Assembly: GCF_900142575.1 (NCBI RefSeq)
Contig: NZ_FRBI01000007.1
Location: 124,001 to 188,000 of the forward strand
Source: Actinacidiphila paucisporea
Lineage (GTDB): Bacteria > Actinomycetota > Actinomycetes > Streptomycetales > Streptomycetaceae
Direction: 5' to 3'
Length of the DNA: 64,000 nucleotides
The notes beneath the pieces are model-generated. The model did no database searches and was not told the DNA's origin. It worked only from the letters and a program-made list of their open reading frames with translations. The translations under genes and the position numbers were made by a program. Positions 2,656-23,287 of this stretch are shown here, piece by piece (the stretch's first letter is position 1; the number at the start of each line of letters is the position of its first letter).

Positions 2656-2770
2656 GTCGCTCCGGGGGTCCGGGCCGGCCCCGTTCGGCGTGGTGTATTG
2701 CAGCGCCGGAACAGGCGGCCGAGGGATTCTCCTTCGTCACCGGTGGGGAGCGGTGCGGCTCATCTGACGA

Positions 2771-3700
2771 TCAGGTCAGCAGGTAGGCGATCAGCGACAG
2801 TGACGCCATGGACAGCAGGGTCGACAGCAGCACGGTGTCACGTGGCAGGTCGGTGTCCAGGTCGTACTCCGAGGCGAAGATGAACGCGTTCTGCGCGGTC
2901 GGAAGTCCGGCGCACATGACCACGGCGAACAGGGCGTGCCCGGTGAGGCCGAAGCCGTAGCGCGCGAGTACGTAGGCCAGCAGCGGTTGCGCGACGACCT
3001 TCAGGGCGACCAGGACGTGGCGTTCCGTGCGACCTGCGGGGGAGGGGCGGGTGCGGGGGTTGAGGGACATGCCAAGGGCGAAGAGCGCCGTGGGCACGGC
3101 CGCTCCGCCGAGCATCTGCAGGGGCGACGTCAACGCGCCCGGCAGATGGTCACCCTTGCTGAGGGCGGTGACCACCAGGCCTGCCGCCGACGCGGCTATG
3201 ACGGGGTTGCGGAACGGCAGCTGCAGCATGCGCCGCCATAGGTCGCCGGTACCGCGATGGGTGTCGAGGTCGATCAGCACCAGGATCAGCGGGGTGATGA
3301 ACAGCATCTGGAAGAGGGCGGCCGCGATGATGAAGGACGTGTCGTGTAGGACGTGCACGGCGACCGGGATACCCAGATTCGCTGAGTTTACGTAGGCCGC
3401 GGACATCGCGCCGATCGCCTGGTCGGCCTGGCGGCGGTGGAACCCCCAGCGGCTGAGCGCCAGTCCTGCCGCGAAGACGACGACGAGACTCGCCGCGAAG
3501 ACGCCGACGCCGGCGGTGGCGAGGTCACCGACATGCGACTTGGCCATGGTGAGGAACAGCAGCGACGGCATGGCGAAGGTGAACGCGAATCTGCCCAGTA
3601 CGTGCTGCGCCCCGTCACCGAGCAGGCGGTAGCGGCCGCCGAGCCAGCCGAGAGCGGTGACGGCCCAGATGGGCAGGAAGCCGGTCAGTACCGATTGCAC
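2771..3700 (-). CDS. AEC-family (auxin efflux carrier-like) transporter
   Basis: The 309-aa polytopic membrane protein starts MQSVLTGFLPIWAVTALGWL and has about ten hydrophobic segments, five on each side of a short charged loop (LNPRTRPSPAGRTERH). This is the usual AEC/membrane transport protein layout of roughly 300-320 aa. The segment FAFTFAMPSLLFLTMAKSHV and the later LPTAQNAFIFASEYD are typical of the family, which moves organic acids or other small anions across the membrane. It is monocistronic and divergent from ribA. The substrate cannot be predicted. Confidence 0.88.
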   Translation of the reverse strand: MQSVLTGFLPIWAVTALGWLGGRYRLLGDGAQHVLGRFAFTFAMPSLLFLTMAKSHVGDLATAGVGVFAASLVVVFAAGLALSRWGFHRRQADQAIGAMSAAYVNSANLGIPVAVHVLHDTSFIIAAALFQMLFITPLILVLIDLDTHRGTGDLWRRMLQLPFRNPVIAASAAGLVVTALSKGDHLPGALTSPLQMLGGAAVPTALFALGMSLNPRTRPSPAGRTERHVLVALKVVAQPLLAYVLARYGFGLTGHALFAVVMCAGLPTAQNAFIFASEYDLDTDLPRDTVLLSTLLSMASLSLIAYLLT

Positions 3701-3939
3701 AGGCCTGCCTGGTCTGTGCCGTGGTCGGCCGACGTCCTCACCGCGTCAGCATGCCCGAGCTGCACAGGGCGCTTACCAGCGGGGTCGTATGAGCTCATGG
3801 TCGTACGGTCGTCGTTCGCTCGACCTCGGCTCGTCGGGCGGCGGTTGACCCGAACGTGTGACGTGCGCCACTGGTCGGCGCGGAAATATACCGGCGATCG
3901 TAAGAGCTTGAGTTTTCAAGATCCTACGAGGGAGTCGAT
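3701..3939. promoter_or_regulatory. Divergent promoter region of the AEC transporter and ribA
   Basis: The 239-base divergent spacer includes the inverted repeat CTTGA-gttt-TCAAG (3907-3920) close to the ribA start and a GAGGGAG ribosome-binding site at 3928-3934. No riboswitch-like FMN aptamer was recognised. The operator assignment is a guess. Confidence 0.3.
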
Positions 3940-4596
3940 ATGTCGGCAGACGCACATCCGGTGCCCGCAGTCGTGACCGCAGTGCCGCCAGTCGCGGGTG
4001 TCCGTACCAAGGTGCGCGTGCCGCTGAGGTTCGCCGACGGATGGGAAACCACCGTGGACGTCTACACCTTCACCGGTCTGGTGGACGGCAAGGAGCATCT
4101 GGCGCTCGGGATCGGCGATTACGAGAACGCCGCCGTGCCGCTGGTGCGGCTGCATTCGGAGTGCCTGACCGGTGACGTCTTCGGCTCCCAGCGCTGCGAC
4201 TGCGGCCCGCAGTTGCGGGAGGCCGTGGAACGTATCGGCGAGCACGGCGGCTACCTGCTCTACCTGCGCCAGGAAGGTCGCGGTATCGGTCTGTACGCGA
4301 AGCTCGACGCCTACGCGCTGCAGGACGACGGCCTGGACACGTACGAGGCGAATCTGGCGCTGGGCCGGGGCGAGGATGAGCGTGACTACACCGCCGCGGC
4401 GCAGATGCTGAACGCTCTCGGGGTCGGTGAGCTCCGGTTGCTGAGCAACAATCCGGACAAGGCCCGGCAGTTGGCGCGGCTCGGTACGAGGGTGGCCGAG
4501 CTGGTGCCGACCGGTGTGCACGTCTCCGACGCCAATGTCCGCTATCTGCGGGCCAAGATCGAACACACCGGGCACACCCTCGCCCTGCCGGCCTGA
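3940..4596 (+). CDS. ribA: GTP cyclohydrolase II (stand-alone RibA)
   Basis: The 218-aa single-domain enzyme opens GTP to give 2,5-diamino-6-ribosylamino-4(3H)-pyrimidinone 5'-phosphate, the first committed riboflavin precursor. The zinc ligands C75, C86 and C88 are present in RLHSECLTGDVFGSQRCDCG, followed by RQEGRGIGL (residues 110-118) and SNNPDKARQL near the C-terminus. The tyrosine equivalent to E. coli Tyr105 is kept (Y125, in KLDAYALQD); Streptomyces paralogues with Met there make a formamide product instead, so this copy should be a classical type II enzyme. It lacks the RibB half of bifunctional RibBA, and no other rib gene is adjacent, so it may serve a paralogue role. A GAGGGAG site precedes the ATG. 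Confidence 0.92.
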   Translation: MSADAHPVPAVVTAVPPVAGVRTKVRVPLRFADGWETTVDVYTFTGLVDGKEHLALGIGDYENAAVPLVRLHSECLTGDVFGSQRCDCGPQLREAVERIGEHGGYLLYLRQEGRGIGLYAKLDAYALQDDGLDTYEANLALGRGEDERDYTAAAQMLNALGVGELRLLSNNPDKARQLARLGTRVAELVPTGVHVSDANVRYLRAKIEHTGHTLALPA

Positions 4597-10757: not shown

Positions 10758-11303
10758 TCAGCCCAGGAGGGGCTGGTGGGCGCCCCTTTCGAAGCTCAGC
10801 AGCCAGCGCTTGCGCTCCAGCCCGCCGCCGTATCCGGTCATGCTGCCGTCGGCGCCGACCACCCGGTGGCAGGGGACGATGATGCTGATCGGGTTCTTGC
10901 CGTTGGCGAGGCCGACCGCGCGGGAGGCGGTGGGCTGGCCCAGAGCCGCGGCCAGTTCGCCGTAGGAGACGGTCTCGCCGTACGGGATGTCGAGCAGGGC
11001 CGCCCAGACCCGGCGCTGGAACGGGGTGCCCGATGTCGACAAGTCGATGTTGAAGGCGGCGGTGTCACCGGCGAAGTACGCGGTCAGCTGTTCGGCGGTA
11101 CGTGCCAGGACCGGGGAGTGGGCTGCGTCGACCCGCAGGCCGAAGGTCTCCTCGGGCGGCATGTGCCGATGCTGCGTCATGTACAGGCCCGCGAGGCCAC
11201 CCGCACGGGTGACCAGCGTGAGGGGGCCGATCGGACTGTCCATGATCGTATGAGCGGATGCGGTGAGTGTCGCGGCCGCGGTCGTGGAAGCCGTCGTCGT
11301 CAT
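10758..11303 (-). CDS. ogt: Methylated-DNA--[protein]-cysteine S-methyltransferase
   Basis: The 181-aa suicide enzyme removes O6-methyl from guanine by transferring it to its own cysteine. The acceptor motif PCHRVVGADG is present (in ISIIVPCHRVV), as are FQRRVWAALLDIPYGETVSY and the GLANGKNP segment before the active site. The N-terminal part TIMDSPIGPLTLVTRAGGLAG matches the Ogt/MGMT N-domain. Its ATG overlaps the stop of the upstream Ada-AlkA gene by 4 bases (ATGA), so the pair is a two-gene alkylation-repair operon on the minus strand. An N-terminal Thr/Ala-rich stretch of about 17 residues precedes the conserved core. Confidence 0.95.
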   Translation of the reverse strand: MTTTASTTAAATLTASAHTIMDSPIGPLTLVTRAGGLAGLYMTQHRHMPPEETFGLRVDAAHSPVLARTAEQLTAYFAGDTAAFNIDLSTSGTPFQRRVWAALLDIPYGETVSYGELAAALGQPTASRAVGLANGKNPISIIVPCHRVVGADGSMTGYGGGLERKRWLLSFERGAHQPLLG

Positions 11304-12823
11304 TGGGAAATGCCTTCCGGTAGGAGGTGATCGGTGGGCAGGACGTTGATCGGATGATCGCCCGTCGCCCACAGGTACTGCGTCGCGTAGGCCCGCCACG
11401 GCTGCCAGGCCGCGGCATGCCGGGTCAGCGCGGCCGGCGTGGCGGGCAGGCCGAGGTCGCGGGCGGCATAGCGGACGCCCAGGTCGGTCGGCAGGAAGGC
11501 GTCGGGGTCGCCGAGCGCCCGCATGGCGATCGTCTCGACCGTCCACGGCCCGAAGCCCGGCAGGGCCCCCAGCTGTGCCCGTGCGCGCTGCCAGTCGCTG
11601 CCGACGTCCAGGTCGAGGCCGCCGCCTTCCAGGGCCCCCAGTAGCGCCGCCAGGGTGTCCCTGCGGGTCTGGGGCATCGCCAGCTCAGCCGGGTCGTGGC
11701 CCGCGAGTGCGTCGGAGGACGGGAAGAGGTGGGTGAGGCCACCGGCGGGGTCGTTGACCGGGTCGCCGTAGGCCGCCACCAGACGCCCGGCGTGGGTGCG
11801 GGCCGCGGCCGTCGAGATCTGCTGCCCGAGCACCGCGCGAACCGCGAATTCTGCCCCGTCCGTGACCCGCGGCACCCGCCGGCCCGGCGACTTGGCCACC
11901 AGCGGCGCGAGCACCGGGTCGGTGGACAGGAGGGCGTCCACTGCCAAGGGGTCGGCGTCCAGGTCCAGCAGCCGGCGGCAGCGGCTGATCGCCTGCGCGA
12001 GGTCGCGCCAGTCGGTGAGCCACAGCCGGCAGCCGATGTGGTCGGCTTCCGGCCGCAGCGCGACGATGCCGGCGCCGTGCGGCAGGCTCATGGTGCGGCG
12101 GTACGCCCCCGCACACCATTCCTCGACGCCGGGGACCGCGGTCGCCGCGAGGTGGCCGAACAGGTTGTCCGGGGTGAGCGGGCGGCGGAAGGGCAGCCGT
12201 AGCGCGATGGAGCCGGCCGGGGCCGCCGGGCGGCCCTTGGCGACCCTGGCGCGCAGTTCGCCCGGCGCGAGGGCGAAGACTTCGCGGACCGTGTCGTTGA
12301 AGGTGCGGATGCTGGAGAAGCCGGCGGCGAAGGCGACCTCGCCCATCGGCAGGGTGGTGGTCTCGATGAGCAGCCGCGCGGTCTGGGCGCGCTGCGCGCG
12401 GGCCAGGGCGAGGGGGCCCGCGCCCAGCTCGGCGAGCAGCTGGCGCTCGACCTGGCGCGCGCTGTAGCCGAGCCGGGCGGCGAGTCCCGGTACGCCGTCG
12501 CGGTCCACCACGCCGTCGGCGATCAGCCGCATGGCGCGGGCGACCATGTCGGCGCGCTCGTTCCACCGAGGTGAGCCGGGGCTGGCGTCGGGGCGGCACC
12601 TCTTGCAGGCGCGGAAGCCGACCTGCTGCGCTGCGGCGGCGCTCGGGTAGAAGGTCATGTTCTCGACCTTGGGGGGTACGACCGGGCAGCTCGGCCGGCA
12701 GTAGATGCGGGTGGTCAGCACCGCAGTGAAGAACCACCCGTCGAATCGGGCGTCCTTCGACTGGACGGCGCGAACGCAGGCGTCGAAGTCCGTATGCACC
12801 CCTCCAGCATCGCCCCTCGTCAT
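11300..12823 (-). CDS. alkA: Bifunctional Ada-type regulator / AlkA DNA-3-methyladenine glycosylase
   Basis: The protein is about 507 aa with four parts. The Ada zinc domain has RFDGWFFTAVLTTRIYCRPS and later FRACKRCRPD, with four cysteines; in Ada one of these accepts methyl from phosphotriesters. An AraC-type helix-turn-helix follows (GLAARLGYSARQVERQL, then VAFAAGFSSIRTFNDTV). An AlkA_N domain and a HhH-GPD glycosylase domain (LPGFGPWTVETIAMRALGD) come last, with the catalytic aspartate in AFLPTDLGV. It should sense alkylation damage, activate repair genes and excise alkylated bases. The start is uncertain: ATG 12823 has a weak AGGA, while GTG 12799 (VHTDFDAC) resembles the N-terminus of homologues as I remember them. 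Confidence 0.93.
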   Translation of the reverse strand: MTRGDAGGVHTDFDACVRAVQSKDARFDGWFFTAVLTTRIYCRPSCPVVPPKVENMTFYPSAAAAQQVGFRACKRCRPDASPGSPRWNERADMVARAMRLIADGVVDRDGVPGLAARLGYSARQVERQLLAELGAGPLALARAQRAQTARLLIETTTLPMGEVAFAAGFSSIRTFNDTVREVFALAPGELRARVAKGRPAAPAGSIALRLPFRRPLTPDNLFGHLAATAVPGVEEWCAGAYRRTMSLPHGAGIVALRPEADHIGCRLWLTDWRDLAQAISRCRRLLDLDADPLAVDALLSTDPVLAPLVAKSPGRRVPRVTDGAEFAVRAVLGQQISTAAARTHAGRLVAAYGDPVNDPAGGLTHLFPSSDALAGHDPAELAMPQTRRDTLAALLGALEGGGLDLDVGSDWQRARAQLGALPGFGPWTVETIAMRALGDPDAFLPTDLGVRYAARDLGLPATPAALTRHAAAWQPWRAYATQYLWATGDHPINVLPTDHLLPEGISQ

Positions 12824-12903
12824 CGTCCTGGTCTGGCGGGAAAACGACATCGAGGTCGGGGGTGCGGCCGGTCGTTGTCAGGGCTCGGCCCTGGCTGCGG
12901 TGG

Positions 12904-14452: not shown

Positions 14453-14788
14453 CCGCCCAGCCTATGCGCTGGCGTAAGTGTCTCCGTCCTGGTGCGGCGC
14501 TCCTTACCCCTCATCAGGTCGGGTCTTTGCGGGCGGGCGGCGCACAGTGCCGGTCCGCGCGCCGTCCGTGCCGGACGCCCTCGCGGACGCCGGGCGTGCA
14601 TCGCCGGCTGGTGGGACCGGGCGCGGACCGGGCGCGGTTCTGCGGGCGATTTCCGCCCACCCCCTACCGCAGGTAACCTGCCGTGCCCTACAGTCCCAAC
14701 AATGCCAGTGATTAATGGCAAGGTGTTCTGCAGTTCGGTTGGACCGGTCGCGGTCCCCGGATGCGGACGGGGAAGGAAAGGCGGTGCC
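14453..14788. promoter_or_regulatory. Divergent control region between merR and the BVMO operon
   Basis: This 336-base spacer has no credible gene. Near the MerR start it holds TGCGC-TG-GCGTA (14465-14476), a near-palindrome of the kind bound by MerR proteins. Nearer the monooxygenase, TGCCA (14703-14707) and TGGCA (14716-14720) form an inverted repeat with an 8-base A/T-rich centre. A strong ribosome-binding site (GGGGAAGGAAAGG) lies just before 14789. Confidence 0.35.
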
Positions 14789-16321
14789 ATGGACGACGAC
14801 AACCGCGAACACGTGCGGGTAGCGGTGATCGGGTCCGGATTCGGCGGTCTGGGAGCAGGTGTACGGCTGCGGCGCGAAGGGATCACCGACTTCGTGATCC
14901 TGGAGCGGGCCGATGCCGTCGGCGGCACCTGGCGCGACAACAGCTACCCGGGATGCGCCTGCGACGTGCCCTCGCACCTCTACTCGTTCTCGTTCGCCCC
15001 CAACCCGGACTGGCCGCGCGCCTTCTCCGGGCAGCAGCACATCCGGGCGTACCTGGAGCGTGTCACGGACACCTTCGGGCTGCGTCCGCATGTGCGTTTC
15101 GGCGCGGAGGTGCAGCAGGCGCGCTGGGACGCCGCCGCGCGGCGCTGGGAGGTGACCACGGCAGCCGGGAAGTTGACCGCGGACGTCCTGGTGTCGGCGA
15201 CCGGCCCGCTGTCCGACCCGAAGACCCCCGACATCCCCGGTATCGCGGACTTCCCCGGGCCGGTCTTCCACTCCTCGCGCTGGGACCACGACTACGACCT
15301 CAGGGGCAAGCGCGTCGCCATGGTCGGCACCGGGGCGTCGGCGATCCAGATCGTGCCGTCAATCCAGCCCGAGGTCCGCAGCCTGACCGTCATACAGCGC
15401 ACCCCGCCGTGGGTGATGCCGCGTGTCGACCGCGCGGTCAGCGGCGCGGAGCGCTGGCTCCACGGCAATGTACCGAGCACCGCGAAGGCCAGGCGCGGAC
15501 TGCTGTGGCTGATCAGGGAATTCCAGGTCGGCGCCTTCGTCAAGCGGCCCCGGTTGATGAAAGCGGCGGAGCGCATCGCCCGCGCCCACCTGCGGCGGTC
15601 GGTCAAGGATCCGGCGCTGCGCGCCCGGCTCACCCCGGACTACACGATCGGCTGCAAGCGGATCCTGCTGTCCAACACCTACTATCCGGCGCTCGCGCAG
15701 CCCAACACCGAGGTCGTCACCGCCGCGCTCACCGAGGTGCGGGGCTCTTCGGTGGTCACCGCCGACGGAACCGAGCGCGAGGTCGACGCGATCATCTTCG
15801 GCACCGGCTTCCGCGTCACCGACATGCCGATCGGCGACCGCGTCATCGGCGCGGACGGGCGCACCTTGGGCGAGCACTGGAAGGAAGGGATGGCGGCGCT
15901 GCGTGGCTGCACGGTCGACGGCTTCCCGAACCTGCTGCTCATCATCGGCCCCAACACCGGCCTCGGTAACAGCTCGATGATCCTGATGATCGAATCATCG
16001 CTCAACTACGTCGCCGACTACATGCGCACCCTGGCGCGCACCGGCGCCGCGGCGCTGGACGCCAAACCCGCCGCAGTGGCCGCGTGGAACGCGGAGATGC
16101 AGAGCCGCGCCGCGCGCACGGTCTGGAACACCGGCGGGTGCAAGAGCTGGTATCTGGACGCGAACGGGCGCAACACCACGGCGTGGCCGGGCACCACCGC
16201 TGAATTCCGCCGTGCGACCGAGCAGTTGAAAATCTCCGAATACGATCTGATCGCACCCGCCGCGGGTGACGTCTCACCGGTGGGCGACGATCGTACGATC
16301 CCGGCGGAGGTCGCGTCATGA
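14789..16321 (+). CDS. Flavin-containing (type I Baeyer-Villiger) monooxygenase
   Basis: The 510-aa FAD/NADPH enzyme has an N-terminal FAD-binding GSGFGG (residues 15-20). The Baeyer-Villiger fingerprint FPGPVFHSSRWD (155-166) fits FxGxxxHxxxW(P/D). A second NADPH-binding GTGASA motif lies at about 180-185. GGTWRDNSYPGCACDVPSHL is the usual FAD-contact segment, and IIFGTGFRVTD the C-terminal ATG-like motif. It would insert oxygen next to a ketone or oxidise a heteroatom. ATG 14789 was chosen for the GGGGAAGGAAAGG site just upstream. Its stop overlaps the hydrolase ATG (ATGA). The next two genes could hydrolyse the ester product and reduce or oxidise the resulting alcohol. Confidence 0.92.
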   Translation: MDDDNREHVRVAVIGSGFGGLGAGVRLRREGITDFVILERADAVGGTWRDNSYPGCACDVPSHLYSFSFAPNPDWPRAFSGQQHIRAYLERVTDTFGLRPHVRFGAEVQQARWDAAARRWEVTTAAGKLTADVLVSATGPLSDPKTPDIPGIADFPGPVFHSSRWDHDYDLRGKRVAMVGTGASAIQIVPSIQPEVRSLTVIQRTPPWVMPRVDRAVSGAERWLHGNVPSTAKARRGLLWLIREFQVGAFVKRPRLMKAAERIARAHLRRSVKDPALRARLTPDYTIGCKRILLSNTYYPALAQPNTEVVTAALTEVRGSSVVTADGTEREVDAIIFGTGFRVTDMPIGDRVIGADGRTLGEHWKEGMAALRGCTVDGFPNLLLIIGPNTGLGNSSMILMIESSLNYVADYMRTLARTGAAALDAKPAAVAAWNAEMQSRAARTVWNTGGCKSWYLDANGRNTTAWPGTTAEFRRATEQLKISEYDLIAPAAGDVSPVGDDRTIPAEVAS

Positions 16322-17289
16322 CGCTCTCATACGAAGCGGTGACCGCGCGGCGCACGCTGCACGTGGTGTCGGCGGACGGAACCCGCGTCCATGTTGAGGA
16401 ATTCGGCCGCGCCGACGGGCCGGCCGTCGTCCTGGCACACGGCTGGACGTGCTCGACCCTCTTCTGGGCGCCGGTGATACGGCTGCTCTCGTCCGATTTC
16501 CGGGTGATCGCCTACGACCAGCGAGGTCACGGTCGCAGCGCGGCTCCGCTCACCCGCACGGGTTACGGCACCGCTGTGCTGGCCGATGATCTGGAAGCCG
16601 TACTGGAAGCGGTGCCCCCGGAGGGTGAACGGGCGGTGTTGGTCGGGCACTCCATGGGCGGTATGACGATCATGGCGGCGTTCGGGCGGGCGGCCGTCAC
16701 CAGCCGTACGGCCGCGGTGCTGCTGGCGAGCACCGGCAGCGGGCGGCTGCTCGGTTCGACCGAGGTGCTGCCGCCGCGGTTCTCGTCCCGGTGGCTGCGG
16801 CGGTTCTTTCACCGGCAGCTGCTGGTCTCGCGGCTGCCGCTCGGGCCGATCACCCCGATGTCGCGCAAGGCCTTCGCCTACGGCGTCCTGGGGGCCGCTG
16901 CGACCAGGGAGCAGGCGGCCTTCACCGCGCGGATCGTGCACGCCTGCAAAGCCAGGCAGCGGGCCGCGTGGGGGCGGGTGCTTGCCGTTCTCGACCTGGA
17001 CACCGAGATCGCCGCGCTGGACGTGCCCACCGCCGTGCTGGTGGGCACGCATGACAAGCTCACGCCGAAAGTGCACGCCCGCGAGATGGCGAAGGTGCTG
17101 CCGCGCTGCGTGGGCCTGACCGAACTGCCCGGGCTCGGCCATATGACGCCGATCGAGGACCCGGAGGCGGTGGCGTCCGTCATACGTGAGCTGGCCGCCG
17201 CCCACGCAGTGCCGTCCACCGAGGTTGACGCCGATGTCGACGCCGTCGCCGGACAGGGTGACGCCGTAGTCGAGGAGAAGAGCGCATGA
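16318..17289 (+). CDS. Alpha/beta-hydrolase
   Basis: The 323-aa hydrolase has HGWTCS (residues 41-46) forming the oxyanion hole, the nucleophile elbow GHSMGGM with Ser112, AYDQRGHGRS (65-74), a VGTHDKLTP aspartate and a C-terminal GLGHM histidine, completing a Ser-Asp-His triad. It is coupled by 4-base overlaps both to the monooxygenase before it and the SDR after it. In that position it is most simply an esterase or lactonase acting on the Baeyer-Villiger product. It ends with an unusual Asp/Val-rich tail (VDADVDAVAGQGDAVVEEKS). Confidence 0.9.
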   Translation: MTLSYEAVTARRTLHVVSADGTRVHVEEFGRADGPAVVLAHGWTCSTLFWAPVIRLLSSDFRVIAYDQRGHGRSAAPLTRTGYGTAVLADDLEAVLEAVPPEGERAVLVGHSMGGMTIMAAFGRAAVTSRTAAVLLASTGSGRLLGSTEVLPPRFSSRWLRRFFHRQLLVSRLPLGPITPMSRKAFAYGVLGAAATREQAAFTARIVHACKARQRAAWGRVLAVLDLDTEIAALDVPTAVLVGTHDKLTPKVHAREMAKVLPRCVGLTELPGLGHMTPIEDPEAVASVIRELAAAHAVPSTEVDADVDAVAGQGDAVVEEKSA

Positions 17290-18188
17290 GCCGGTCATCG
17301 GTACAGGGTCAGGTCGTGGTGGTGACAGGCGCCGCCCGCGGGGTGGGCGAGTTGCTGGCCCGCAAGCTCGCCGCGCGCGGCGCGCGGCTGGCCCTGGTCG
17401 GGCTGGAGCCGGACGAGCTCAAGCAGGTCACCGCGTCGCTGGGCGGCGACGCCGCCTGCTGGACCGCGGACGTCACCGACCGGGCCGCCATGGCCCGGGT
17501 CGCCGCCGAAGTGGTCACGCAATTCGGCCGGATCGACGTCGTCGTCGCCAACGCCGGTGTGGCGACGGGCGGTCCGTTCCTCGAGTCCGACCCCGACGCC
17601 TTCGACCGCGTCATCCAGGTCAACCTGCTGGGCAGTATCGCCACCGCCCGCGCCTTTCTGCCGGCGCTGCTCGAATCGCGCGGCTACCTGCTGCAGATCG
17701 CCTCGCTCGCTGCGATCACCCCCGCGCCGATGATGGCGGCCTACTGCGCGAGCAAGTCGGGCGTGGAGGCCTTCGCGCACAGCCTGCGCGCGGAAGTCGG
17801 CCACCACGGCGTGGCAGTGGGCGTCGGATATCTCAGCTGGACCGACACCGACATGGTGCGCGGCGCCGACGAGGACGACGTCCTGCGGGAGTTGCGCGCA
17901 CGGCTGCCGTGGCCGGCCAACCGCACCTATCCGCTGGAGCCGGCGGTGGAGCGCATCGCGGCGGGTATCGCGCGGCGTTCGCCGCACGTCTATGCCCAGT
18001 GGTGGCTGCGCGGCATGCAGTCGGTGCGGGGCGCGCTGCCGTCGGTCATCGGCGGGGCCCTCGGGCGGCGCGAAATGCGGCGGGCGGCGCCCGCGCTGGC
18101 CCGCAACGCGGGAATACACCGGGGTCTTGTCGGGCGGGGAGGTGCCGCCGACGAGTCGGCCCGCGCCGCCGGTCATCACGTTCTGTGA
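17286..18188 (+). CDS. Short-chain dehydrogenase/reductase
   Basis: The 300-aa SDR has the N-terminal cofactor motif TGAARGVG, NAGVATGGPF, a catalytic serine in LLQIASLAAITPAP and the YCASK Tyr-Lys pair. The C-terminal extension (LRGMQSVRGALPSVIGG and so on) is longer than in classical 250-aa SDRs and contains a basic, amphipathic stretch that could touch membrane lipid. It is the last gene of the monooxygenase-hydrolase-SDR operon. The order resembles the start of the mycobacterial mymA operon (monooxygenase, esterase, SDR), which acts on lipids, but this is an analogy only. Confidence 0.9.
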   Translation: MSRSSVQGQVVVVTGAARGVGELLARKLAARGARLALVGLEPDELKQVTASLGGDAACWTADVTDRAAMARVAAEVVTQFGRIDVVVANAGVATGGPFLESDPDAFDRVIQVNLLGSIATARAFLPALLESRGYLLQIASLAAITPAPMMAAYCASKSGVEAFAHSLRAEVGHHGVAVGVGYLSWTDTDMVRGADEDDVLRELRARLPWPANRTYPLEPAVERIAAGIARRSPHVYAQWWLRGMQSVRGALPSVIGGALGRREMRRAAPALARNAGIHRGLVGRGGAADESARAAGHHVL

Positions 18189-18305
18189 CGACAAAGTGCC
18201 GCTGACCTGGGGCGATTGGCAGTTGATTGCCCCAGGATGCGCTGGTTGTCACCCCATGTAAGTCTGGTCGAGGCCGCATCCCCACACACTCCAGGAGGAG
18301 TAATC

Positions 18306-19394: not shown

Positions 19395-22300
19395 TCAGAG
19401 CGGCGTCGCGGGCGGGCGCGGGGGAAGTGGCGGCCGGGCGCGGTCGGGACGGGTGGAGAGGTCCGGAGGGGTGGCCGCGGGGTGCTGGGAGAGGAGGGTC
19501 AGGGCGGTGCGTACGGCGACGTCGAGTTGGCCGTGGCGGCCCTCAGCCCAGTCCAGCGGCGTACGCAGGCACTCGATGTCGGGTGCGACCCCGTGGTTCT
19601 CCACCGACCAGCCGTAGGCGTCGAACCAGGCGGCGTTCATCGGCACCGTGATCACGGTGCCGTCGCCCAGGCGGTGGCGGCCGGTCATGCCGACGACGCC
19701 GCCCCAGGTGCGCAGGCCCACCACGGGGCCGAGGCCGAGGAGTTTGAACGCCGCGGTGATCATGTCGCCGTCGGAGGAGGTGGCTTCGTCGGCAATGGCG
19801 ACGATCGGGCCCCGTGGTGCGTTGCTCGCGTACGAGACGGGTTGGGCGTTGCGGGTGAGGTCCCAGCCCAGGACCGTGCGAGTGAGCTTCTCGATGACCA
19901 GTTCGCTGATGTTGCCGCCCGCATTGCCGCGGACGTCCACCAGCAGGGCGTCGTAGGCGACCTCCTTGCGCAGGTCGCGGTTGAACTGCGCCCAGCCGGA
20001 GCCGCCCAGGTCCGGGATGTGCAGATAGCCGCACCGGCCGCCGCTGAGCCGGCGCACGACCTTGCGGCGTTTGGCGACCCAGTGCTGGTAGCGCAGCGGG
20101 CGGTCGTCGATGAGTGGGACGACGGCCACCCGGCGGGGTGCGCCGCGGCCGCCCGGCGGGCGGAAGGTCAGCTCCACGGTGGTGCCGCCGGCGCCCGCGA
20201 GCAGCGGGAAGGGGCCCGCGTGCGGGTCCACCGGGCGGCCGTCGACGTGGGTGAGGACGGCTCCTTCGCGGATGCCGGTGCCCGCCAGCGGGGAGCGGGC
20301 CTTGGAGTCCGACGACTCGCCCGGCAGAATGCGGACCACCGTCCAGGTGCCGTCCTTGTTGTGCTGGAAGTCGGCGCCGAGCAGGCCGATGGGGCGCTGG
20401 TAGTGCGGCGGCCCTTCGTTGCGGCGGGCGGCGGCGACATAGGCGTGGGACGTGCCCAGTTCGCCCAGCACTTCGCGGAGCAGGTCGGCGAACTCGTCCG
20501 GCGTGGCCACCCGGTCCACCAGCGGGCGGTACTGGTCAAGGACGGCCGGCCAGTCCACGCCGCACATGTCCGGCGCCCAGAAGTAGTCGCGGGTCAGGCG
20601 GCCCGCCTCGGCATAGGACTGCCGCCATTCGGCGCCGGGGTCGACCTCGTGCAGGATGCGGCGCATGTCGACATAGACGGTGGTGTCGTCGTCACCGCGT
20701 TCGTTGGCGGGCAGCACCGCCAGTTCGGCTTCGTCATATACCGCGAGCCGGCGGCCGTCACCGCTGACGGAATACCAGTCCATGTGGTGGACCAGCTCGG
20801 TCTTCTTGGACTTGCCGAGGTTGAAGAACTCCAGGCTCGGGCGGGAGGAGGGGTCGGTGGGATTGACGAACGTCTCGCCGAGGGCGCCGGAGATCGGCCA
20901 GCGCATCCAGACCAGGCCGCCCTGCACCGGTTCGAGTGACGAGTACTTCGACGCGGGCACGGGGAAGGGCGTCACCCGGCTGGGCAGGCCCTCCGCCTCG
21001 ACGACGACCGGGCCGTCACTGTCGCCGCCGCTCTCGCCCGGGTCGAGGCCGCTGCCGCTGGCGCTGCCGACCGGGCCGCCGTCGACGGGCAGGGCGAAGG
21101 GGGACGGCGTGGCCGAGTTGAGCGGCACGAGATACGGGCGGCAGCCGAGCGGGAACGACAGGTCGCCGGTATGGACGTCGTACACCGGGTCGAAACCGCG
21201 CCAGGACAGGAAGGCCAGATAGCGGCCGTCGCGGGTGAAGACCGGCTGCTCGTCCTCGAAGCGCCCGTTGGTGACGTCGATGATCGTGTGGTCGGACAAT
21301 CGGGCGATCTTGATGGAGCGCAGGGAGCGGCCGACGCCGGGATGGGACCAGGTCAGCCACGCCGAGTCGGGGGAGAAGGCGAGGTCGCGGACCGGCCCGT
21401 TGGTGGAGCGGATCAGCTCCTTCACCGTGCCGGGCGGGTTCTGCTCCTCAAAGGTGACGTCCGCGGTGCCGGGGTCCGTGTCGTCGTAGCGGGTCGCGCC
21501 GCCCCCGTCGGAATTCGCGTCGGTAGCCACGCCGGTGGTCACCAGCAGCAGGCCGCCGTCGTTCGACGCGACCGCCAGGGTGCCGCCGTCGGGTGACGAC
21601 ACCAGTTCCAGTACGCGGCCCAGGCGGCCCACCGCCAGACGGGTGACCGCGTCGGAACTGTCGCCGGGTGGCGGGCCGCTGTCTCCGCCGCCGGCGGCGG
21701 CGAGGGTGACGGCGCCGTCGACGTAGGCCACCCGGGTGGAACCGGTTCTGATCATGTGGTCATCGCCCGCCGGAATACGATGATCGCCCGCTTTCGTATG
21801 ATCATCGCCCGCCGGAATATGATCATCGCCCCCCGCCGTACGCGACCGCGCGCTGCCCACCGGAACCGCACCCGCCCCCGCACCCGCCCCCGCACCCGCC
21901 CCCGCACTCGCCCCCGCGCCCGCGTCCGCCGGGGCGCCGGACGGCTCGACGGAGTCCGGAGCAGCGTCCACGACGGCGGCCGCCGCGGCCGCCTCTGCGG
22001 CCGTCTCCGGGCCGCGGCTGAGGGCGCGGGAGGCGCGGCCCGGGAGGGGGGCAAGCTCGATGCCGTCCTCACCCTCGGCGTCGGTGACGTAGCCGACGAG
22101 GCCGGTGTCGCCCAGCATCGCGGGCAGCCGCACCCGGGCGCCCGCGTCGTCGGCGATGGTGCGGGCCGGCCCGTCGCGGTGGGTGAGCCAGTACAGGCTG
22201 CCGCGTACGCATACAGCGCTGGCGCGACCGGACGGGTCGATGGCCAGGCCGTCGAGGTTGGAGGCCGCCGGCACCTGATACCGGCGGCGGCCGCTGCGGG

Positions 22301-23147
22301 CGCCGCCCAGGCGCATGTCGAGGCGGCGCGGGACGGCGTCGGCCGAGGCCAGGTCCTCGACCAGCCACAGGTCGCCCGCGCACTGGTAGACGACACGCTC
22401 GCCGTCGGTGGCCGCATTGCGGGCGTAGAAGTCGGCGTGGTCGGTGTGGCGGCGCAGGTCGGTGCCGTCGGGGAGGCAGGAGTAGAGGTTGCCGATGCCC
22501 TCGTGGTCGGACAGGAAAGCGATCCGGCCGGCCACGAACATCGGCGACGCGAGGTGCCCGTCGATGTCCGGCACCAGGCGCTCACCGTGCAGCCACAGCC
22601 GTCCGGTCGCGCCGCCGCGGTAGCGCTTCCACGCGTGCGGTTCGTGCGGCGGCGTGCCCGTCAGCAGCAGGGTGCGGCGCTCGCCGCCGGCGTCGTCGTC
22701 GCGCACGGCGATGTCCGACACCGGCCCCCAGGGCAGCGGTCCGCCGGGGCCGCACTCGACCGGCACGCTGTGCGCCCAGGTGAAGTAGGAGAACGGCTGC
22801 CCGTGGGAGGAGACCGCCAGTACGTGGCCGTCGGGAGTCCATGAGCACACCCGTGTGTCGGCGCTGCCCCAGTACGTCAGCCGGCGTGCGGTGCCGCCGT
22901 CGGACGGCACCAGATACACCTCAGGGTCCAGGCTCCGCCAGGTCGTGAAGGCGATCGTCGCCCCATCGGGTGACAGCCGCGGCGGCCCGACCCGCGTACG
23001 GTCGGCCGTCACCCGCCACGCACGCCCGGGGGAGCCGCCCGGCGGCCCCAGCGGGGCCACCCAGAGGTCGTCCTCCGCGGCGAAGCAGAGCATGTCGCCG
23101 TGCAGGTGCGGAAACCGTAGGTACGCGCCGTCGCTCACTCCACCCAT
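19395..23147 (-). CDS. Tricorn-type protease (S41 family)
   Basis: The protein is about 1250 aa. The N-terminal two thirds are six- and seven-bladed beta-propeller repeats (YLRFPHLHGDMLCFAAEDDL, then TPDGHVLAVSSHG and DGRYLAFLSWRGFDPVYDV). A C1 domain, a PDZ domain (GIREGAVLTHVDGRPVDPHA) and an S41 peptidase domain follow. The catalytic serine sits in DEATSSDGDMI, followed by GLRTWGGVVGMTGRH and a C-terminal VENHGVAPDIE. Tricorn degrades oligopeptides downstream of the proteasome. An Ala-Gly and Gly-Asp-Asp-His repeat insert breaks the propeller region (see separate entry). Start: ATG 23147, or GTG 23138 (VSDGAYLRF), which resembles homologue N-termini. Confidence 0.88.
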   Translation of the reverse strand: MGGVSDGAYLRFPHLHGDMLCFAAEDDLWVAPLGPPGGSPGRAWRVTADRTRVGPPRLSPDGATIAFTTWRSLDPEVYLVPSDGGTARRLTYWGSADTRVCSWTPDGHVLAVSSHGQPFSYFTWAHSVPVECGPGGPLPWGPVSDIAVRDDDAGGERRTLLLTGTPPHEPHAWKRYRGGATGRLWLHGERLVPDIDGHLASPMFVAGRIAFLSDHEGIGNLYSCLPDGTDLRRHTDHADFYARNAATDGERVVYQCAGDLWLVEDLASADAVPRRLDMRLGGARSGRRRYQVPAASNLDGLAIDPSGRASAVCVRGSLYWLTHRDGPARTIADDAGARVRLPAMLGDTGLVGYVTDAEGEDGIELAPLPGRASRALSRGPETAAEAAAAAAVVDAAPDSVEPSGAPADAGAGASAGAGAGAGAGAGAVPVGSARSRTAGGDDHIPAGDDHTKAGDHRIPAGDDHMIRTGSTRVAYVDGAVTLAAAGGGDSGPPPGDSSDAVTRLAVGRLGRVLELVSSPDGGTLAVASNDGGLLLVTTGVATDANSDGGGATRYDDTDPGTADVTFEEQNPPGTVKELIRSTNGPVRDLAFSPDSAWLTWSHPGVGRSLRSIKIARLSDHTIIDVTNGRFEDEQPVFTRDGRYLAFLSWRGFDPVYDVHTGDLSFPLGCRPYLVPLNSATPSPFALPVDGGPVGSASGSGLDPGESGGDSDGPVVVEAEGLPSRVTPFPVPASKYSSLEPVQGGLVWMRWPISGALGETFVNPTDPSSRPSLEFFNLGKSKKTELVHHMDWYSVSGDGRRLAVYDEAELAVLPANERGDDDTTVYVDMRRILHEVDPGAEWRQSYAEAGRLTRDYFWAPDMCGVDWPAVLDQYRPLVDRVATPDEFADLLREVLGELGTSHAYVAAARRNEGPPHYQRPIGLLGADFQHNKDGTWTVVRILPGESSDSKARSPLAGTGIREGAVLTHVDGRPVDPHAGPFPLLAGAGGTTVELTFRPPGGRGAPRRVAVVPLIDDRPLRYQHWVAKRRKVVRRLSGGRCGYLHIPDLGGSGWAQFNRDLRKEVAYDALLVDVRGNAGGNISELVIEKLTRTVLGWDLTRNAQPVSYASNAPRGPIVAIADEATSSDGDMITAAFKLLGLGPVVGLRTWGGVVGMTGRHRLGDGTVITVPMNAAWFDAYGWSVENHGVAPDIECLRTPLDWAEGRHGQLDVAVRTALTLLSQHPAATPPDLSTRPDRARPPLPPRPPATPL
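21755..21920 (-). repeat. In-frame tandem repeats inside the tricorn gene
   Basis: Two adjacent repeat arrays keep the reading frame. Around 21755-21838 there are four units of 21 bases (core ATCATCGCCCGCCGG) that encode a 7-residue GDDHIPA-like repeat on the minus strand. Around 21860-21920 there are units of 12 bases (GCCCCCGCACCC) that encode an Ala-Gly run. Both lengths are multiples of three, as expected for tolerated slippage in a surface loop of the propeller domain. Confidence 0.8.
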
Positions 23148-23287
23148 GTTTCGGGGCGCCCGCACGGCCAGCAACTTTTCACTCCCGTGCGCCCCCGAAG
23201 TGCCTCGGCGCACCCGGGCGGCCGCCGGGGCGTACGGTCCCGGGGAGGTGCGGGTGATCGGCGGCGGGCCTGTGGCGGGGAGGCGGG

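Follow-up and report, generated by a model that had tools for sequence, protein, structure and literature searches.

In the ketone catabolic modules acm, mek, chn and cpn a Baeyer-Villiger monooxygenase (BVMO) is accompanied by an esterase or lactonase and an alcohol dehydrogenase, which take a ketone through an ester or lactone to an alcohol and an acid; these modules are strain-specific and have regulators and gene orders of their own. A second system to be compared is the mymA operon of Mycobacterium tuberculosis, whose regulator VirS belongs to the AraC family and whose product Rv3085 is presumably of the short-chain dehydrogenase/reductase (SDR) type. To our knowledge, the native role of many actinobacterial BVMOs has not been established. 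According to the available excerpts of the literature behind this background (PMC9044951, PMC13234193, PMC10272862, PMC6018540, PMC12505454, PMC11606603, PMC12004358), mymA comprises seven genes induced through VirS, the products being MymA, the acetylhydrolase LipR and Rv3085 (annotated as acetoin dehydrogenase), followed by adhD, Rv3087, tgs4 and fadD13; acidic pH induces the operon, which is of importance to the cell envelope, and the native role of mycobacterial BVMOs is described as largely unknown. Here we analyse an operon encoding a BVMO, an alpha/beta hydrolase and an SDR, with a divergent MerR-family regulator, in a stretch of 64,000 nucleotides from Actinacidiphila paucisporea (contig NZ_FRBI01000007.1, positions 124,001 to 188,000; the whole stretch is called the window and all coordinates refer to it unless another record is named). 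The operon is real and intact, and it occurs in most genomes of the family with a conserved promoter plan. Its chemistry belongs to a known type. The surprise lies in the MerR protein, whose sensing half, as modelled, resembles the regulatory domain of mycobacterial Rv1264.

An initial sequence-only reading had remarked that the same order of enzyme types opens the mymA operon, and the likeness holds to that extent, since a BVMO, an esterase or acetylhydrolase and an Rv3085-type enzyme follow one another in both, with a regulator gene across the promoter region. However, the regulator is VirS there and a MerR protein here, and the four further genes of mymA (adhD, Rv3087, tgs4 and fadD13) are absent 3' of the SDR gene in the window. 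Because the regulator and the remaining genes differ, we do not class the operon as a mymA operon; the likeness is one of enzyme type and annotation, the parallel is an analogy only, and shared acid or lipid signals are suggestive only. In genome G090 a hydrolase of the Abhydrolase_3 type comes after an SDR-BVMO pair; this set, considered as a possible mymA orthologue to serve as a yardstick, is of low identity (31% for the SDR and 38% for the BVMO). The acm, mek, chn and cpn modules share the expected route from ketone to alcohol and acid, and, unlike these strain-specific sets, the window operon is shared by 60 of the 73 family genomes. Searches of open-licence PMC papers returned no paper on this operon.

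The three enzyme genes lie on the forward strand and are joined by two ATGA overlaps, BVMO/hydrolase at 16318-16321 and hydrolase/SDR at 17286-17289, just as first described; the coordinates stand, with the BVMO start set at the ATG at 14789. The BVMO gene (14789-16321, +) encodes 510 amino acids with GxGxxG motifs, the pair K290-R291 and the fingerprint FxGxxxHxxxWD, which had been called exact and indeed reads FPGPVFHSSRWD at residues 155-166; by Pfam the protein is FMO-like. Residue conservation was counted in filtered alignments (92 BVMO, 83 hydrolase and 90 SDR sequences). The fingerprint residues F155, G157, H161 and W165 are invariant in 92/92 sequences, with the final D kept as D in 84/92, and the same invariance applies to the first Rossmann motif (G15, G17, G20), to the second, which ends in Ala (G180, G182, A185), and to K290-R291, which aligns with the KR of 4ap3 and of the cyclohexanone monooxygenase 4rg3. 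The Arg of this Lys-Arg pair is catalytic in BVMOs. The match to the steroid monooxygenase 4ap3 has an E-value of 1.1e-71 over two aligned stretches (11-216 and 265-459). By E-value the closest solved BVMOs are steroid and cyclohexanone monooxygenases, phenylacetone monooxygenase being lower in the list, and the nearest named relatives are from Actinacidiphila (93 and 90%) and Streptomyces. By motif and length-wise likeness the window enzyme is a type I BVMO, for which ketone-to-ester activity is predicted.

The hydrolase (16318-17289, +; 323 amino acids) matches Abhydrolase_1 and Abhydrolase_6 in Pfam, carries a GHSMGG elbow, and has a triad Ser112-Asp246-His275 that is invariant in 83/83 sequences; among PDB entries it is most like haloperoxidase-type enzymes, an esterase and arylesterases. 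Epoxide hydrolases use an Asp nucleophile instead of Ser, and the serine found here fits an esterase or lactonase rather than an epoxide hydrolase. The SDR (17286-18188, +; 300 amino acids; adh_short) is of the PRK05872 type, scoring 394 bits against NCBIfam NF004526 (cut-off 276), with the tetrad Asn113-Ser140-Tyr153-Lys157 invariant in 90/90 sequences; Gly39 and Glu41 after the second strand are also invariant and do not settle the choice between NAD and NADP. The early assignment of the last two genes to a hydrolase and an SDR is therefore borne out by family matches and intact catalytic residues. Given the invariance of these residues, the three enzymes look intact by each criterion tested.

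In order to follow the linkage of the four genes, one set of 120 genomes, to which the window's own belongs, was searched four times, and a BVMO with at least 67% identity was counted as an orthologue. Such an orthologue is present in 60 of the 120 genomes, which are 60 of the 73 of the family and include 35/35 of the genus. MerR is divergent and linked in 54 of these 60, within 600 bases in 48 and at 0.9-7 kb in six; of the remaining six, five genomes of one genus, named g3, have it unlinked, and G057 gave no MerR match. Among the 60 orthologous loci, 59 have the SDR following and 52 the hydrolase. A set of 80 named loci, chosen as the best BVMO matches, shows MerR divergent upstream in 80/80 (78 within 600 bases), the hydrolase in 75/80 and the SDR in 78/80, and contig ends account for two of the five hydrolase misses and for both SDR misses (L083, L087). 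In the same 80 loci the genes found left of MerR in the window are seldom kept (Ogt in 4, AlkA in 7, GNAT in 5 and a small gene in 5), and this difference from the 80/80 of MerR places the linkage far beyond chance. On the 3' side of the SDR there are a terminator-like hairpin (CCTGGGGC...GCCCCAGG, 18206-18236, strand not applicable), which as read from the sequence is probably the operon end, a small gene, and a tricorn-type protease (19395-23213, -) that stands by the operon in 73/80 loci; a frame of 773 amino acids antisense to the protease was disregarded. MerR and the three enzymes being kept and the left neighbours not, the unit consists of four genes, by the tricorn protease in most loci. 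A lack of co-conservation of MerR had been named at the outset as the result that would speak against the module; this is not the case within the family, although at 57-61% BVMO identity the enzymes occur without MerR.

The regulator gene (14452 to 13574, -) starts with GTG, is divergent from the BVMO gene and encodes 292 amino acids, with a winged helix-turn-helix at about residues 27-96 and a C-terminal sensor-like domain at about 112-265, as judged from a structure model and Pfam. The assignment to MerR_1 is clear (73 bits against PF13411, cut-off 21.6), and the full-length structure model gives Z 14.2 to 5gpe. The protein had been described as a MerR without metal-binding cysteines. The window copy has no cysteine of any kind, and neither have 109 of 121 related copies, 11 others having one cysteine and a single copy two; the NCBIfam cut-offs for metal sensors are far from reached. 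By the cysteine criterion, then, the regulator would not belong to the metal-sensing class (MerR, CadR, CueR, ZntR).

The model of the full protein (mean pLDDT 84.9) contains the MerR winged helix, a second winged-helix-like unit and long helices. MerR DNA-binding domains dominate the Foldseek and VIA matches of this model, and among the 50 matches listed Rv1264 has the highest TM-score by query length (0.38). The C-terminal 171 residues were then modelled alone from 44 sequences (mean pLDDT 90.8). The top five matches by Z are all Rv1264 (2ev2 6.6, 2ev3 6.4, 2ev1 6.2, 1y11 6.1 and 1y10 5.4), with 149-164 of the 171 residues aligned, rmsd 4.2-4.7, 12-13% identity and every Z below 8; next comes CbpM at Z 5.1. 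The comparison by hhalign of the 44-sequence profile with 30 Rv1264-type domains, found with PF16701, gave a score of 29.2 over 126 collinear columns, with an E-value of 6.4e-4 for this single comparison and a probability of 27.7%; the controls stayed well below this, the reversed profile scoring 12.5, 60 shuffled ones no more than 16.1 and three unrelated families no more than 13.8. A badly trimmed first alignment had yielded no match (E 0.46), and a PF16701 search of the window's genome found one place, which is not the MerR gene. Taken together, the model and the profiles indicate structural likeness and probable distant homology to the Rv1264 regulatory domain, not membership of PF16701. 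As modelled, the two domains appear alike in overall fold and in their collinear profiles (PDB 1y10, 1y11 and 2ev1-2ev3 for the Rv1264 N-terminal domain, Rv1264N); they differ in that Rv1264N controls an adenylyl cyclase whereas the MerR version is joined to a DNA-binding domain and lies below the PF16701 cut-off. In the excerpts of PMC12505454, Rv1264 holds oleic acid, its relative Rv2212 is activated by oleic acid, and a title cited there calls Rv1264 pH-sensing. Neither a description of such a MerR class nor any link between MerR and Rv1264 was found in open-licence PMC papers.

The region between MerR and the BVMO was compared in 110 instances (the window, 29 loci from other genomes and the 80 named loci, the latter two sets overlapping in species). 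Three elements stand in a nearly fixed arrangement on the forward strand: the candidate MerR operator TACCGCAGGTA (14665-14675), of the form TACC-n3/4-GGTA, which overlaps the -35 region of the BVMO promoter; the putative -10 box of the operon, TACAGT (14689-14694), of the form TANNNT; and the imperfect palindrome GCCAGTGATTAATGGC (GCCAGTG...CTGGC, 14704-14719), a second putative regulatory element near the predicted transcription start. A match to TACC-n3/4-(G/A)GTA is present in 109/110 regions, only L049 being without one, and it ends 11-13 bases before the -10 box (99 by script and 10 by eye). The TANNNT box lies 7-9 bases 5' of the palindrome in 100/110 regions, and in the other ten the palindrome is about 8 bases further off with the spacing from TACC to the box kept. 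The palindrome itself is found within 4 substitutions in 110/110 regions, in 17 sequence variants with a nearly invariant left arm. An alternative long BVMO start at 14702 is in frame in the window; by eye, the palindrome of L045 is without a start codon and the frame is lost in L029. As start codon and frame are not always kept in relatives, the palindrome is taken as a DNA element.

The behaviour of these elements where MerR has moved suggests which of them it would bind. In five loci with MerR 1.4-7 kb away (L042, L043, L148, L149, L150) the TACC site and the palindrome remain with the BVMO. In the five g3 loci, where MerR is unlinked, 400 bases contain no TACC match (0/5), and the same is true of G057; the palindrome is kept in 5/5 g3 loci (1 mismatch in four and 3 in one) and not in G057. 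Because the TACC site tracks the linked MerR, TACC-n3/4-GGTA is the best candidate for its operator, with the palindrome as a second element. The insertion in L042 and L043 is a gene for a multi-pass membrane protein, which we take to be DUF2637-like, between MerR and the BVMO promoter, whose elements are undisturbed. The g3 loci themselves (L114, L116, L118, L120, L122) have a BVMO-SDR operon without the hydrolase, downstream of a TetR-like gene, and MerR elsewhere in the genome.

On the side of the regulator, the near-palindrome CCAGCCTATGCGCTGG (14457-14472) had been pointed out beside the MerR start. It exists, but its use as an operator finds no support: its arms occur in 7/110 regions under a strict pattern, and it encloses the putative MerR -10 box TAGGCT, within AGCCTATG on the forward strand, that is CATAGGCT on the MerR strand (14459-14466, -). 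Since AGCCTATG is conserved (exact in 69/110 regions and with at most one mismatch in 92/110) and the arms are not, we read the near-palindrome as a promoter and not as a palindromic operator. From the 6 bases between this box and the GTG we infer that the MerR transcript is probably leaderless.

The palindrome of the BVMO promoter was also considered as a site of a genome-wide regulon. A loose pattern was uninformative, and a stricter pattern of 18 bases found in the own genome just the operon site within 2 mismatches and three others at 3 mismatches (control pattern: 1), so this reading was dropped. Among the matches at 3 mismatches is the perfectly symmetric GCCAGTGGTCACTGGC at C75:13531-13548 (L134, about 5532), and two reading frames tested near it have no NCBIfam match.

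From these data we propose a combined model, to which we give an even chance: the operon, widespread among streptomycetes, would process ketones and be switched by a MerR that responds to a lipid or to pH. A MerR dimer would bind TACC-n3/4-GGTA in its intergenic region and set transcription of the three enzymes. As the C-terminal half resembles the Rv1264 regulatory domain, the signal that it senses would most likely be a fatty-acid-like lipid or a change of pH, and not a metal. Fatty-acid ketones and acid stress had been proposed in the sequence-only reading as inducers to try, and the sensor likeness lends this proposal indirect support. The BVMO would insert oxygen beside the carbonyl of a ketone, yielding an ester or lactone; the serine hydrolase would split this into an alcohol and an acid; and the SDR would interconvert a carbonyl compound with the alcohol or with an alcohol precursor. 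This is the expected chemistry of the three families, and the route put forward in the sequence-only reading is supported in part, with an SDR that may work in either direction. A bolder version, in which a MerR class with an Rv1264-type sensor switches on a ketone-to-ester lipid operon when fatty acids accumulate or the pH falls, we regard as speculative and rather doubtful. If it is true, one sensor module serves both mycobacterial cAMP signalling and streptomycete transcription. The sensor relation, if correct, would tie the lipid and pH sensor of Rv1264 to the control of transcription and predict a ligand class for a MerR subfamily, some members of which stand near fatty-acid enzymes. In most genomes of the family a BVMO is tied to a regulator, two partner enzymes and a promoter of rigid layout, so that its role becomes testable through one operon in one laboratory Streptomyces.

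A number of observations weigh against this model. On the regulatory side, the window has one TACC site while 67/110 regions have two; the five g3 genomes run the enzymes behind a TetR gene without a linked MerR or TACC match, yet with -10 box and palindrome retained; neither the unlinked g3 MerRs nor a MerR paralogue in the window's genome has a TACC site upstream; and L118 retains, as seen by eye, a degenerate TACC form missed by the pattern. At the 67% identity threshold 13 of the 73 family genomes yield no BVMO orthologue, and in G080, G081 and G083 (BVMO 59-61%) and G043 (57%) the three enzymes stand in order with no nearby MerR match. Of ten neighbours of diverged MerRs scanned for Pfam matches, four are lipid- or carbonyl-type enzymes, two are AurF (L190) and TerC (L194), and four have no match; these come from 7 of 20 fetched loci, a small sample. 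As for the sensor, the C-terminal domain (CTD) of the MerR protein Rv1828 is close behind Rv1264, with Z 4.9 over 115 residues, and in Foldseek of the C-terminal model it ranks first (E 0.057), before Rv1264 in second and third place, none of them below E 0.001. A Z below 8 can reflect a common arrangement. The hhalign result carries the low probability and the one-comparison E-value given above, and a narrower MerR alignment gave a probability of 1.1% (E 0.046). Rv1264 was missed by an hmmsearch profile search of PDB sequences, and PF16701 is absent from the families listed for 24 MerRs at E 10.

These points bear on two other explanations of the regulator. MerR could be a conserved neighbour only, with control of the operon in the hands of a different factor, one that recognises the GCCAGTG...CTGGC palindrome near the transcription start; the presence of this palindrome in all regions compared, its persistence in the g3 loci in which MerR is unlinked and no TACC match was found, the more distant loci with enzymes and no MerR, and the tricorn protease downstream in 73/80 loci, which may make part of the linkage general synteny, are all consistent with it. 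We nevertheless consider it unlikely, as MerR is divergent and linked in 54/60 loci whereas the genes to its left are kept in 4-7/80, the TACC site follows MerR linkage, and in other places relatives of this MerR turn up again beside BVMO, SDR and hydrolase-SDR genes. The g3 TetR, the one candidate to emerge as palindrome binder, gave matches in 33/76 genomes, nine of them at 63% identity or more; it was rejected as a general binder because nothing in the window's genome matched it at 1e-25, 38 of the 92 first-look candidates there having been scored. MerR could also bind the palindrome itself. Alternatively, the C-terminal half of MerR could consist, like that of Rv1828, of another MerR-type winged helix and a coiled coil for dimerisation, and bind no lipid. 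The first place of the Rv1828 CTD by Foldseek E-value, the failure of PF16701 and of the sequence-profile tests, and the modest hhalign probability for Rv1264 make this a quite conceivable reading that we still hold to be somewhat less than probable; the Rv1264 entries span the whole domain (149-164 residues) and are the top five by Z, against 115-116 residues for Rv1828, and the hhalign alignment is collinear over nearly the whole length and scores well above the controls. The two readings of the domain need not conflict, should Rv1264N itself have arisen from a winged-helix domain of this kind.

The physiological part of the model, namely the processing of ketones, has its own competitors. 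The operon might remodel the lipids of the cell, in the membrane or spore wall and in a mymA-like fashion, rather than degrade a carbon source, and its presence in 60/73 family and 35/35 genus genomes is indeed more typical of housekeeping than of dispensable catabolism. In one relative tested, L116, the operon lies two genes from the hopanoid gene hpnH, and the mymA operon, whose first three enzymes are of these types, has an effect on the cell envelope according to the excerpts available. Against this, hpnH is confirmed in that one g3 locus only, with a like frame in L118 and L120, and mymA has a different regulator and four more genes; we hold such a role to be less likely than not. The monooxygenase might instead act mainly on the sulfur or nitrogen of foreign compounds, which would make this a detoxification operon. 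Sulfoxidation is a known side activity of BVMOs, and the mycobacterial EthA and MymA are described in the excerpts as activating thioamide prodrugs. We think this quite improbable, since the hydrolase and the SDR are kept with the BVMO in 52/60 and 59/60 loci and recur with distant BVMOs in other orders, for which ester chemistry is the better fit.

The recurrence of the three enzymes was followed among distant BVMOs. The order BVMO-SDR-hydrolase is present in L136, L137 and L138 (56-60% identity), hydrolase-BVMO-SDR in L139 (53%), hydrolase-BVMO in L140 (44%) and BVMO-SDR in L141 and L146 (52 and 50%); in L142, L143, L145, L147, L151 and L152 (BVMO 43-56%) no hydrolase or SDR partner was found at 1e-8. 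The repeated assembly in different orders suggests that the BVMO, the hydrolase and the SDR serve one pathway. Relatives of the regulator have comparable company: hydrolase and SDR matches are also near MerR in L198, L200 and L201, and among the diverged MerRs that of L186 has an SDR and a BVMO nearby, that of L189 an enoyl-CoA hydratase two genes off, that of L194 a divergent thiolase and that of L204 an SDR.

A paralogue of MerR (41% identical) was observed in the own genome on contig C44 (280000-292000, L130), on the same strand as a PF10118 metal hydrolase and a PRK05855 hydrolase-SDR fusion (844.7 bits). This locus is similar to the window in having a MerR of the same subfamily by a hydrolase and an SDR; it differs in that the two enzymes are fused, PF10118 is present, the 12 kb stretch around the paralogue has no BVMO match, and there is no TACC site upstream of either its MerR or the fusion.

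Some further observations concern the surroundings of the operon and of its relatives. Left of MerR in the window lie Ogt and Ada/AlkA-type DNA repair genes (10758-12850, -). At L116 3009-4752 the TetR-like gene is divergent from hpnH, and a similar frame was seen in L118 and L120. A BVMO relative is present in 210 plasmid records, the best 55% identical; the one annotated plasmid neighbourhood inspected is a biosynthetic cluster and not this module, and a second record carries no annotation. Below the 67% threshold, what is left in G041 and G055 is just a hydrolase-SDR or an SDR-MerR pair, and in G042 (C1:3811689-3813168), one of the 60 genomes counted above, the BVMO orthologue is split over two frames, which may reflect a decayed copy or a sequencing error. 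In L127 a gene for a family 2B encapsulin shell (2751-4142) adjoins a version of the operon that has no MerR and a TetR-type gene upstream.

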